A DNA stretch of 52,988 bases from Thermoplasmata archaeon (lineage in GTDB: Archaea; Thermoplasmatota; Thermoplasmata; Lutacidiplasmatales; UBA184). Location of the stretch: NCBI GenBank assembly GCA_027315165.1, contig DAHUYN010000013.1, positions 1-52,988 of the forward strand, in the 5' to 3' direction. Below, piece after piece: positions 89 to 4,416 of this stretch (positions are counted from its first letter, which is position 1; the number at the start of each line of letters is the position of its first letter). Below the pieces are notes generated by a model. That model saw only the letters and a program-made list of their open reading frames with translations. It was not told the DNA's origin and ran no database searches. The position numbers and the translations under genes are program-made.

Positions 89-1804
89 CTACTCCGGGTT
101 CGTCGATTCGGCGTGCTCCGAGAGCTTCTTGACCCGACCCTTCGGCTTCGGGGCGAGGGGGACCGAAAGCGGCGCCTGTCGGAACGAGACGTTGCGGTAT
201 CGTGGCGCCTCGATGTTCTTGCCGCCGAGCAAGTCGGCAACAGTGATGATCTGAAGCTTGGCGTACCTCTCCTCGGGGGAGAGCCGGTACTCGGGTTGAT
301 AGAATCCAGCGTCGGCCGCCTCCTTGCGCATCGGCTCCGTAGACTCCTCGAGGGTCAGGAAAGCGCCGAGCTGGGCCTTCTCGCGCTCGACCACGCCGCG
401 AAGGTCTCGGATGTCTCGGGATGAAACGTGTCCCGACTTTACCTGAACGATAATCGTCTTGGACCCGGCGCCGTCCTTCTCGTGAAACACCGCACGGCCG
501 TCGATTCCTTGGTCGGCGCCTTTCCTGAAGTCGCGGGGGTCGGGGCGAGCGCCGACTTTCCCGAGCGCCCAGAGTTGGAATTGGTAGCGGTCGAGGGCTG
601 CGAGAGCCTTCGCGCCTTCCATGTCGGTAGGTTCCCCGACAACCGAGTAGTCCGCCTTGCCCTCGAACGCGTCCGCGAGGCGAGACCGAATGAGGGTAAT
701 GGCGAGGTGGGTCAGGTCTATGCCGATCCACCGGCGACCTAATCTCTGGGCCGCGGCAATCGTCGTACCGCAGCCGCAGAACGGGTCGAGGACCACCTCC
801 CCCGGATTACTACTCGTCTCGATGATGCGCTCGAGAAGGGCCTCAGGCTTCTGAGTCGGATACCCGAGCCTTTCAGCGGCCTGGGCCCCGAGGAGCTTGA
901 GGTCGGTCCAGATATCCTGAGTCACGACGCCCGGCATCTCATCGAGGTAGCGCTTCTGCATCGGGACGTTCCCGGGAGCGGTCTGTACGACTCGACCCTC
1001 TCGGACCATCGCCTCCATCTTCTCTTGAGTGAACCGCCACGCTCGGGTGACTCCCATCAGCTCGTACTCGGGGCTCCCCCGAGCAACCCCGCCAGGTCCG
1101 GTCAGGTCGCCCAGGCTGAACCGCCGCCAACCTTCCCGAGCCTCCTCCCCCTTCTTGAGATGGACGACCTGCCCGTCGGGCCCCTCGGCCCACCGATACC
1201 CCGTGCTGAGCTGCTTCTCGTCGTACGGGATGAACACCGGGTTCCACGTCCACTCGTCGCTCACCGTGTAGAACAGAATCGTGTCGTGGATTCGCCCGTG
1301 CTGACGTCGGCCTTGGCGGGCGTCGTTGTGGGCGCTCTGGCGTTTCCAGATGATCTCCGTTCGGAAGTTGGTCGGCCCGAAGGTGGCGTCGAGGAGAATC
1401 TTGAGGTAGTGCGAGGCGGTGGGATCGCAATGGAGGTAGAGCGACCCCTTCGGCTTGAGGACTCTCCGGAGTTCGACGACCCGGGGGGCCATCATCGAGA
1501 GGTAGGCAAGGAGATCGTTGGACCCGAGGAGGTCCCGCATCGCTTGGAGAGCCCGCCCTACGCTGCTCCCCGACTCGACGGTCTCTTGGAATGTCCGAGC
1601 TGAGTTCTCGTCCCAGCGCCACGAATCGGAAAACGCTTGGAACTGAGCCGCGGACTGGGTCCCGTTTCGCTCGGCGAAGAGGACGTTGTAATCTTGATTC
1701 GAGTTGAACGGGGGATCGAGGTAGACGAGGTCTACCGTTCCGTCTTTGACGTAGCGTCGGAGAATCTCGAGGTTGTCCCCATAGTAGAGGAAATTATCGG
1801 ACAC
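89..1804 (-). CDS. DNA adenine methyltransferase fused to Mrr-type nuclease domain
   Basis: 571 residues from a GTG start. The N-terminal part is a beta-class amino-methyltransferase: the catalytic motif DPPF is at residues 30-33, and the AdoMet-binding motif DPFCGCGTT comes later, at 340-348. The stretch of about 150-320 between them would hold target recognition. DPPF rather than SPPY favours N6-adenine methylation. After about residue 400 comes a PD-(D/E)XK-like domain of the Mrr type, with D435 in DQGIDG and Q454-x-K456 in IVQVKSG. The protein could therefore both modify and cut DNA, as in single-chain restriction-modification enzymes; nuclease activity is inferred. A TATA-like box at about 1828-1837 lies 27 bases before the GTG. 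The gene is more A/T-rich than the rest of the window, consistent with transfer. No separate restriction gene is visible to its left. Confidence 0.85.
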   Translation of the reverse strand: MSDNFLYYGDNLEILRRYVKDGTVDLVYLDPPFNSNQDYNVLFAERNGTQSAAQFQAFSDSWRWDENSARTFQETVESGSSVGRALQAMRDLLGSNDLLAYLSMMAPRVVELRRVLKPKGSLYLHCDPTASHYLKILLDATFGPTNFRTEIIWKRQSAHNDARQGRRQHGRIHDTILFYTVSDEWTWNPVFIPYDEKQLSTGYRWAEGPDGQVVHLKKGEEAREGWRRFSLGDLTGPGGVARGSPEYELMGVTRAWRFTQEKMEAMVREGRVVQTAPGNVPMQKRYLDEMPGVVTQDIWTDLKLLGAQAAERLGYPTQKPEALLERIIETSSNPGEVVLDPFCGCGTTIAAAQRLGRRWIGIDLTHLAITLIRSRLADAFEGKADYSVVGEPTDMEGAKALAALDRYQFQLWALGKVGARPDPRDFRKGADQGIDGRAVFHEKDGAGSKTIIVQVKSGHVSSRDIRDLRGVVEREKAQLGAFLTLEESTEPMRKEAADAGFYQPEYRLSPEERYAKLQIITVADLLGGKNIEAPRYRNVSFRQAPLSVPLAPKPKGRVKKLSEHAESTNPE

Positions 1805-2972: not shown

Positions 2973-3078
2973 CGGGCCTGTCGGGAGTCTCCGCCGGGGT
3001 GCGCGGACGCCCCGGCCTTTGAACCCGAGAATGCTGGCTTAGAAGGCCAGTACTTTGTCCGAGCTAAGCTACAGGCCC
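2973..3078 (-). tRNA. tRNA-Arg(UCU) with a T-loop intron
   Basis: Read on the minus strand from 3078. The acceptor GGGCCTG (3078-3072) pairs with CAGGCCC (2980-2974), and the discriminator G is 2973. The D stem is GCTT/AAGT with a loop holding GG. The anticodon stem is CTGGC/GCCAG with loop CTTCTAA, giving anticodon UCU at 3043-3041. The variable loop is CATTC. The T stem TCGGG (3028-3024) pairs with CCCGA (2985-2981). Removing an inserted 31 bases restores the usual archaeal T-loop TTCAAAT. The 3' CCA is not encoded (CCT follows the discriminator). A TATA-like box lies at 3103-3110. The tRNA would decode AGA/AGG codons, which are rare in the GC-rich genes here. Confidence 0.92.
2987..3017 (-). 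other. Predicted archaeal tRNA intron (position 59/60) with bulge-helix-bulge
   Basis: The 31 bases between A59 and U60 of tRNA-Arg(UCU). The 7-base helix GCCGGGG/CCCCGGC closes a 10-base loop inside the intron. Flanking it, UUCA faces GGAG across the 4-position central helix (U-G, U-A, C-G and one A/G mismatch). Three-base bulges AAG and ACU sit on opposite strands, and the T stem UCGGG/CCCGA is the outer helix. Cutting after the second base of each bulge, the rule for the archaeal splicing endonuclease, gives exactly the 31-base intron and a 7-base T-loop. Confidence 0.85.
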
Positions 3079-3145: not shown

Positions 3146-3736
3146 TCACTCGACGGTCATCATACCCGTCATGTAGCCGATACCGGACATCGACGGGCCG
3201 TTGCACGGGGCCATGCACTGCCAGGTGAACACGCCGGTCGTGTTGAAGTAGGCGTCGAAGACGACGACCGTCGGGCTCGTCGCCGACGCCGCCGGCACCG
3301 GCACGTTGAACCCGGCGTAGGCTCCGCCAAGGAAGGTGAACGTGTGCGCGACCGACGCCGTCGGGACCGAGGAGACGCCCTGGGTGCTGCCGTTGAGGTA
3401 CTCGACGTTGCCGACCGTCCCCGAGATGGCCCCGTAGGACGGCGGGATGACGTTCTCGCCGTTGTCGTAGTTCGTGATCGTGAAGACGAGGAGCGTGTGG
3501 GCCGGGACCGAGAAGTTCGCCGGGTTGTACTGGTCGGCGCCGACCGGCCGGATGTCGGGGTTCCCGTTGATCGAGAGGTAGACGTAGGCGGCCGCGCCCG
3601 GGGCCGCCGCCGGGGCGGACGGGGCCGGCGTGCCCGCGCTGGAGAGCTCGGCGCCGGCCGCGCTCGCCACGAACGCTCCGATCACGACGATCGCCGCCAC
3701 CGCTGCCACGACGTTGTAGAACCGCTGGTCGTTCAT
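3146..3736 (-). CDS. Membrane-anchored cupredoxin-like protein with Met/Cys-rich metal site
   Basis: 196 residues from ATG 3736; upstream in-frame starts would extend into low-complexity sequence and are rejected. One signal-anchor segment (about 9-28) is followed by an Ala/Pro linker and a beta-rich domain facing outward. Candidate copper ligands are H80, H131 (VAHTF), C174 and C178 in WQCMAPC, then M183, M189, M192 and M193. The CxxxC spacing resembles the binuclear CuA loop of oxidase subunit II, but the position of the second CuA histidine is serine (S182). It could be an electron carrier of the sulfocyanin kind or a copper-binding chaperone; the sequence does not decide. A TATA-like box at 3767-3776 lies about 35 bases before the ATG. 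Confidence 0.75.
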   Translation of the reverse strand: MNDQRFYNVVAAVAAIVVIGAFVASAAGAELSSAGTPAPSAPAAAPGAAAYVYLSINGNPDIRPVGADQYNPANFSVPAHTLLVFTITNYDNGENVIPPSYGAISGTVGNVEYLNGSTQGVSSVPTASVAHTFTFLGGAYAGFNVPVPAASATSPTVVVFDAYFNTTGVFTWQCMAPCNGPSMSGIGYMTGMMTVE

Positions 3737-3783
3737 CCACGCGCCTGGCGAGAACCGCGCCGGGAGACTACTTAGGCACCTCG

Positions 3784-4416
3784 TCAAGCCGGCTGAACGA
3801 GCGAGCGGCGCGGGCGCTTTCGGGGCCGACGGCGCGGCGGCGACCCGGCGGCGACCCCGGCGGCATGGGCGACGAGGTGCGCGAGACGGAGCGGCTCCGG
3901 CCAGAGGCCGACGACGGCGGCGCGGCGGACGACCGCGACCGCGTCCTCGGGCGCACACCCCGCGGCGGCGGCGAAGATCGGCGCACCGGACGTCGGCACC
4001 TCGAGCAGCGGCGCCCGACGGAGCCGGCGCCAGCGTCGGGCCGCGTCCGGAAAGTAGCGGAACAGCGCCGCGCGGATCCGCGGAAGGTCGGGAGGTCGGC
4101 GCGTTACCGCGATCGCAGGCCGCCCCAGGCGGCGCGCGACGGCGTGGAGGTCGACGACGTTGAACCCCCCGACGGCGATGCCGTCGAGGAGCACCGCCCG
4201 GACGCCGTCGACGGCCGGGAGCGCGCGGACGATCGCCACGATCCGCTCCGTCGCGTCGTCGCCGTCGACCTCGACGCGGCCGATCGCGACCTCCTCGACC
4301 CGGTCGGGTGAGGACCAGACGACGGCGGCGAGCGGGGCCGAGCGCTGGCGGCGCCGGAACGCCCCGTCGTCGACGCCGACGAGCCGGAGGTGCGGCTTCG
4401 AGAGCGCCCGCCTCAA
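3784..4416 (-). CDS. DUF99 family protein
   Basis: About 210 residues if translation starts at TTG 4416, just before the family's opening motif LVGVDDGAF. Other conserved DUF99 blocks are visible: VDGDDATERI, VLLDGIAVGGFNVVDL and a PDLPRIRAALF stretch. This is an archaeal family of unproven function; a nuclease-like fold has been suggested and the conserved Asp residues are present. The start is uncertain because no ATG or GTG lies in frame near the motif and no clear TATA box was found. It precedes the cupredoxin gene by 47 bases on the same strand. Confidence 0.8.
   Translation of the reverse strand: MRRALSKPHLRLVGVDDGAFRRRQRSAPLAAVVWSSPDRVEEVAIGRVEVDGDDATERIVAIVRALPAVDGVRAVLLDGIAVGGFNVVDLHAVARRLGRPAIAVTRRPPDLPRIRAALFRYFPDAARRWRRLRRAPLLEVPTSGAPIFAAAAGCAPEDAVAVVRRAAVVGLWPEPLRLAHLVAHAAGVAAGSPPRRRPRKRPRRSLVQPA

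Follow-up and report, generated by a model that had tools for sequence, protein, structure and literature searches.

A 59/60 T-loop intron in tRNA-Arg(UCU) of a Thermoplasmata archaeon and its putative processing by an alpha'2-like splicing endonuclease

In this study we find that the tRNA-Arg(UCU) gene at 2973-3078 on the minus strand of the window, by which we mean the whole 52,988-nucleotide stretch of DNA analysed from a soil archaeon, contains 31 bases that are very probably a bulge-helix-bulge (BHB) tRNA intron at position 59/60, processed by an EndA of the alpha'2 type and by RtcB. With fair confidence we further propose, from sequence comparisons, that the T-loop acts in Thermoplasmatota as a second standing splice site, at which an alpha'2 EndA without the CSL/ASL insertion would mature 59/60 introns in up to about one third of the tRNA genes, together with a few D-loop introns, and including a derived BHB with a conserved A57 x G mismatch. 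If this proposal is true, non-canonical introns do not, contrary to the published rule, require an endonuclease with such a loop, and a narrow enzyme either reads the geometry of a 5-bp stem with a 7-base loop rather than its place in the tRNA, or has been broadened by an undescribed route.

Structure of the tRNA-Arg(UCU) gene and its intron

Nucleotide 1 of the gene lies at 3078 and the discriminator G73 at 2973; the first-pass annotation had named no strand. By cloverleaf parse, all four stems are complete only after removal of the 31 bases GGCCGGGGCGTCCGCGCACCCCGGCGGAGAC at 2987..3017 (minus strand), which separate exon 1 (tRNA positions 1-59, 3018..3078, minus strand) from exon 2 (2973..2986, minus strand), the latter consisting of U60, the T-stem 3' strand CCCGA, the acceptor strand CAGGCCC and G73, with CCA not encoded. 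As in other archaeal BHB tRNA introns, removal restores a complete cloverleaf, with the acceptor stem GGGCCTG/CAGGCCC, the D stem GCTT/AAGT, the anticodon arm CTGGC-CTTCTAA-GCCAG and the T arm TCGGG-TTCAAAT-CCCGA. The anticodon TCT (UCU), at 3041..3043 (minus strand), lies in the 7-base loop between CTGGC and GCCAG, and ARAGORN calls the identical anticodon. At a score of 20.5 or more, our tRNA finder reports this gene and nothing else from the 53-kb window, while 20 first-order Markov-shuffled windows gave no finder hits at a score of 19.5 or more. We found no second Arg(UCU) gene, intronless or otherwise, in the 2.04-Mb, 94%-complete genome, and the tRNA-Arg(UCU) with a 31-base 59/60 intron claimed by the first-pass annotation is borne out both by the cloverleaf parse and by a same-place intron in all 91 full-length matches of the order.

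The insert and its flanks form most of a BHB. The 5' bulge, A58 A59 / G(i1), lies at 3017..3019 (minus strand), with the predicted cut after A59; the 3' bulge, A C / U60, lies at 2986..2988 (minus strand), with the predicted cut before U60. Among 146 distinct T-loop-intron tRNAs, positions 58-59 are AA and base 60 is U in every case, and with these predicted cut points two 3-base bulges, AA|N and NN|U, can be drawn by sequence in 146/146. The central helix of the Arg(UCU) gene joins U54 U55 C56 A57 on the exon strand (3020..3023, minus strand) to G G A G (i-6..i-3) on the intron strand (2989..2992, minus strand), and consists of U54-G, U55-A and C56-G with an A57 x G mismatch, that is, three pairs and not four; in RNAfold it stays open. 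The gene thus lacks the 4-bp central helix of a strict hBHBh' motif. Of the BHB described by the first-pass annotation, the bulges AA|G and AC|U stand, with the central helix corrected to three pairs. The intron itself folds as a hairpin, its 7-bp stem pairing GCCGGGG (3010..3016, minus strand) with CCCCGGC (2993..2999, minus strand). Across 77 distinct Arg(UCU) introns the seven columns of this stem are 91.5% paired, against 73.0% in shuffles that keep the relatedness among the introns, a level that 0/1000 shuffles reach; the stem covaries, with compensatory changes.

In 79 Arg(UCU) introns (the duplicates L033, L170 and L019 and the G001 locus L152 being left out), bases 54, 55 and 56 pair with i-3, i-4 and i-5 in 78, 79 and 79 cases, and G stands opposite A57 in 71/79. 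The set of 146, collected with a stricter finder, omits two genes of this genome, Asn(GUU) and Leu(UAG), as well as 12 of the Arg(UCU) loci; four central pairs are present in 55/146. Within it, tRNAs with G57 have C at i-6 in 50/53, four central pairs in 49/53 and, with the arm folded on its own, the central helix in the RNAfold optimum in 40/53. Those with A57 have G at i-6 in 83/93 (U in 6, A in 4), a three-pair central helix in 87/93, all four pairs in 6/93 and the helix in the RNAfold optimum in 4/93, counts that are inflated by relatedness because this A57 set is mostly Arg(UCU) of one order. A57 is accompanied by G, not by its partner U. Given the prevalence of three pairs and the rarity of the folded helix, the A57 T-loop introns are not strict BHBs. 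Because it has three pairs and A57 x G, in a set where 55/146 have four pairs, we file the Arg(UCU) 59/60 intron as a relaxed, near-canonical BHB and not as a strict one.

T-loop introns in the genome, the order and the class

The intron is not a lone oddity: such introns occur in 13 genes of this genome, in the Arg(UCU) gene of 91/106 genomes of the order and, beyond the order, in 18 more families of the class. Of the 42 tRNA genes that we found in this genome, Rfam matched 40 at E<=10 and our R1 covariance model added two; 59/60 introns were found in Arg(UCU), Arg(UCG), Ser(CGA), Ser(GCU), Ser(GGA), Glu(CUC), Gly(UCC), Asn(GUU), Asp(GUC), Gln(CUG), Lys(UUU), His(GUG) and Leu(UAG). D-loop introns, placed only approximately (by eye, that of Lys(UUU) looks like 20/21), are present in four genes, namely a CAU-anticodon tRNA, Arg(GCG), Lys(UUU) and Leu(UAG). 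Another four genes have anticodon-loop introns: another CAU tRNA, Tyr, Leu(UAA) and Trp, the last parsed under relaxed settings only and with an inexact intron end. The total is 21 introns in 19 genes, two of which hold two introns each, and 17 introns are non-canonical; Glu(UUC) and Arg(CCG) were read by eye. Our finder requires TTC[A/G] at 54-57 and C61 in intron-bearing genes, so that other forms would escape, and it favours a pyrimidine at base 60 only slightly. T-loops without a T-loop intron in this genome read TTCRAAT in 22/26 parsed and start with TTCRA in 26/26, the finder demanding TTCR. Two more genomes of the genus have 13 and 14 T-loop-intron isotypes, almost the same set. The Lys(UUU) gene (G000:C1:10119-10258, L263) has both a D-loop and a 59/60 intron, and its double-intron relatives (L233, L239, L242, L309, L317, L338 and L354) come from this genus, f3, f5, f29, f30 and f33; it is possibly an old gene arrangement. 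The tRNA-Trp(CCA) gene (G000:C33, L151) has a long anticodon-loop intron; such introns are reported to hold a box C/D guide RNA.

Full-length Arg(UCU) matches (at least 105 of the 106 bases) are found in 91/106 genomes of the order, at 73-92% identity in relatives, and all 91 parse with a 59/60 intron (79 and 12 in two parses). Arg(UCU) is intronless in six read genomes of the order (G002, G003 and G010-G013), four from this genome's own family (g4) and two from f3, and eight genomes, with assemblies 65-89% complete, gave weak partial matches only. The Arg(UCU) gene of G001 (f2; L152, G001:C33, about 434-536) is an odd case: it parses with a 13-base T-loop insert, too short for a clear hairpin, and a D-loop insert, and it is counted among the 146. 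G038, possibly a mixed bin, has two full-length Arg(UCU) genes (G038:C52:4471-4577 and G038:C86:2173-2281). Ribosomal protein L3 is encoded about 3 kb from the Arg(UCU) gene, and its relatives (the best 80 of 520) are mostly Thermoplasmata MAGs, including UBA184 and Candidatus Lutacidiplasma silvani AcS3-62, names from which we infer the order to be Lutacidiplasmatales; the GC-rich euryarchaeon suspected by the first-pass annotation, represented here by a MAG, is a member of Thermoplasmatota. Arg(UCU) turned up in 45 of these best 80 of 520 L3 loci; the 59/60 intron is present in 41 of them, those of silvani and UBA184 among them, and absent from 4. The other 35 gave no tRNA hit at the threshold used, some, though not all, being too short to reach the tRNA.

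Beyond the order, at least one 59/60 intron occurs in 23/28 genomes read, from 18 families of the class, a figure that is not a measure of prevalence, the 28 having been chosen mostly by high model score. None was found in the loci read of the other five (G117, G165, G190, G210 and G283), and in G165 nothing at the locus was parsable. Candidate losses are g4 and f8 g53 for the Arg(UCU) intron, and f15 and f19. The R1 model matched 106/106 and 300/300 genomes among the matches listed, but we do not use these counts as prevalence because its E-value does not separate intron-bearing from intronless tRNAs and because they cover listed matches only; introns are claimed only where the sequence itself was read. 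mcrA is present in 5/12 genomes tested, namely all four tested from f8 and G332 of f33, which are therefore probably methanogens. We take these mcrA-bearing f8 and f33 genomes to be Methanomassiliicoccales.

The splicing endonuclease and the proposed mechanism

The first-pass annotation had looked to a loop-bearing EndA of broad specificity, which our analysis does not support. The EndA of this genome is one ORF with two tRNA_int_endo domains (PF01974; L002, about 1270-2331, with GTG taken as start codon by our choice), and no further PF01974 match, either a second EndA or a separate beta gene, was found at E<=0.001 in the 94%-complete genome. Two repeats in one ORF with no separate beta gene is the alpha'2 arrangement, and the ORF is colinear with the alpha'2 enzyme of Archaeoglobus fulgidus (1R0V, E 7e-27); the enzyme appears alpha'2-like, and this colinearity suggests a homodimer. 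In 15 further genomes, 14 EndAs have two matches in one frame (the second weak in G117, E 0.001) and that of G165 has one. The Lys-bearing CSL/ASL insertion, sought between YG(S) and LSL in the catalytic repeat, is absent in 16/16 EndAs aligned, which have wild-type A. fulgidus length at this site; the positive control was 3P1Y, read from the alignment as A. fulgidus EndA with a CSL graft between YGS and LSL. The lack of an insertion is shared with 1R0V, with which the comparison was made. Like the alpha'2 enzymes of A. fulgidus (1R0V, 2GJW) and Thermoplasma acidophilum (2OHC), the EndA is a two-repeat chain, and in the EndAs compared (n=16) the positions that align with catalytic Tyr, His and Lys retain these residues. 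RtcB is present in the genome.

From the observed gene structure, conservation and covariation, and from the EndA architecture with no insertion at the CSL/ASL site, we infer the following course. The gene would be transcribed, and the precursor would fold into the BHB through its T stem, bases 54-57 of the T-loop and the 3' tail of the intron; EndA, the sole one found and of the alpha'2 type, would cut after A59 and before U60, and RtcB would join the ends to give the T-loop UUCAAAU. Both 37/38 and 59/60 fall between bases 6 and 7 of a 7-base loop closed by a 5-bp stem, hence at equivalent places in their arms, and loop bases 1-4 would provide the exon half of the central helix in the T arm as in the anticodon arm. 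The canonical enzyme may then see the T arm as an anticodon arm, and splicing could proceed without a specificity loop because the two arms share this geometry. The position is non-canonical, as the first-pass annotation stated, yet apart from one central-helix mismatch the geometry is that of an anticodon-loop intron. With the canonical 37/38 BHB intron it shares a 5-bp stem, a 7-base loop that is cut after its sixth base, bulges of 3 bases, a central helix of four positions and an intron hairpin; it differs in that the arm here is the T arm and that A57 tRNAs mostly have A x G at the fourth position of the central helix. Positions 54-58 (UUCRA) are nearly invariant across isotypes and 59 is usually A, which would let one type of intron tail (CGAAAN, or GGARAN opposite A57) fit most tRNAs and so open the T-loop to introns as another general site. 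In the three surveyed genomes of the genus, 13-14 isotypes have an intron there.

The weak point of this geometric mechanism is the A57 x G class, whose mismatch EndA would have to tolerate, and EndA may have a broader specificity through a part of it that has so far escaped recognition. An independently broadened EndA, an alpha'2 enzyme without CSL/ASL in which other features allow relaxed BHBs such as that with A57 x G, would suit A57 introns with mostly three central pairs and G so often opposite A57. It could also draw on the stretch RG(G/S)...(K/R)TP...W in the N-terminal, non-catalytic repeat, which is present in 11/16 EndAs and not seen in the A. fulgidus sequence. However, this pattern was not found in the EndAs of G001, G117, G148, G165 and G332, and since G148 (f8) and G332 (f33) carry 59/60 introns without it, the stretch does not track introns and was rejected as a substitute loop. 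The class-wide G57 introns, moreover, are mostly ordinary 3-4-3 BHBs, and homodimers are reported in the accessible part of PMC8707768 to cut BHL-like motifs anyway. On balance an independently broadened EndA seems unlikely to us.

A recent spread of mobile introns from isotype to isotype by transposition, which has been proposed for Thermoproteales, would explain an intron type common to many isotypes, and a 50-base stretch of T arm and intron in Asp(GUC) matches the Arg(UCU) query at 83%. Tested by intron similarity in three genomes, however, recent cross-isotype transposition found no support: cross-isotype similarity within the same genome averages 0.068 (247 pairs), close to the 0.062 between genomes (495 pairs) and lower than the same-isotype value of 0.177 (38 pairs), while almost the same isotypes are intron-bearing in all three genomes. 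We regard such a spread as quite improbable; because intron similarity shows no recent cross-isotype copying, the case for a general site is drawn from the distribution of the introns. A pseudogene or assembly artefact with the insert retained would agree with the failure of general tools on T-loop-intron genes, but the locus is the sole Arg(UCU) gene found in the genome and has full-length matches throughout most of the order, and its intron stem shows compensatory changes in a splice frame constant in 146/146. Both pseudogene and chance were rejected on the 91/106 matches, the shuffled windows and the intron-stem covariation, and the former is hardly credible.

Processing of 59/60 introns by an alpha'2-like EndA would depart from much of the published record, in whose accessible parts a 59/60 intron in this lineage is indeed unexpected, as the first-pass annotation had supposed. 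The accessible text of PMC4090602 describes non-canonical tRNA introns from Crenarchaeota (above all Thermoproteales), Thaumarchaeota, Nanoarchaeota, Korarchaeota and ARMAN, and its list includes 59/60 and 20/21; 59/60 introns are thus already known in other archaea. Those archaea share with this genome position 59/60, two introns in one gene and many isotypes, but in the portions of the literature available to us their EndA is (alpha beta)2, epsilon2 or a loop-bearing alpha2, whereas here, in Thermoplasmatota, it is alpha'2-like without the loop. The permuted tRNAs of Thermofilum pendens and Cyanidioschyzon merolae also have a T-loop junction at 59/60; their halves are permuted, according to the part of PMC3218864 consulted, whereas ours has a simple cis intron. 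Alpha'2 enzymes are called narrow in excerpts of PMC6379350, PMC12397907 and PMC4033280, and these sources together with PMC4090602, as excerpted, either call alpha'2 narrow or link introns at non-canonical positions with CSL/ASL or with endonucleases of another subunit type. Alpha4 and alpha2 enzymes are said in the available text of PMC4090602 to be strict to the BHB at the canonical position, and according to a 2014 review (PMC4033280, partial text), which credits a specific loop, Korarchaeum alone among archaea combines an alpha2 endonuclease with tRNA introns at non-canonical positions. The enzymes of A. fulgidus and T. acidophilum are listed as narrow (PMC6379350, partial text), whereas the EndA here would have to serve 17 non-canonical introns. 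This narrowness is not absolute in print, because homodimers also cut BHL-like motifs (PMC8707768) and A. fulgidus EndA can cut them at 37/38 in full-length pre-tRNA (PMC6379350), both as reported in the accessible parts. Some Asgard archaea have very many non-canonical introns, to judge from the available part of PMC11291895.

An alpha'2-like enzyme that lacks the insertion, in a group rich in 59/60 introns, would directly contradict the published rule, and the group offers a natural series for what EndA reads, from strict G57 and relaxed A57 x G introns to intronless sister genera. Ferroplasma presumably belongs to the same class as this genome. Its homodimer is described in the accessible part of PMC8707768 as cleaving a mini-BHB at 30 C and was used there with a BHB intron set into a hairpin loop of 7 bases. 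Among the matches listed in the literature searched, by titles and abstract openings, we found no report of T-loop introns in Thermoplasmatota. The accessible main text of the Lutacidiplasmatales paper PMC9287336, in which tRNAscan-SE was used in archaeal mode, does not contain 'intron' or 'splic', and its tables may list such introns.

Behaviour of general tRNA tools and neighbouring genes

The expectation that general tools would mishandle this gene proved correct. ARAGORN called the spliced form tRNA-Arg(tct); on the unspliced gene it gave the right anticodon and a wrong 3' end, and Rfam RF00005 matched it at 31.6 bits over 3020-3078, mis-aligned and with the T arm lost. Among the T-loop-intron tRNAs given to ARAGORN with artificial flanks, two double-intron genes being left out, 11/11 were recognised when spliced, and when unspliced 8/11 were missed and 3/11 mis-ended. 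The Rfam cut-off was reached by 6/13 T-loop-intron genes; 5 fell below it and 2 were unseen at E<=10. This suggests that tRNAs in such MAGs are under-called by general tools, and counts based on tRNA number could be affected. Elsewhere in the window, at 89-1804 (minus strand), DNA methylase (PF01555) and Mrr-like restriction (PF04471) domains lie together in one protein. Another protein, at 3146-3958 (minus strand), is secreted-looking and without a Pfam match, and has a C-terminal WQCMAPCNGPSMSGIGYM reminiscent of cupredoxins.
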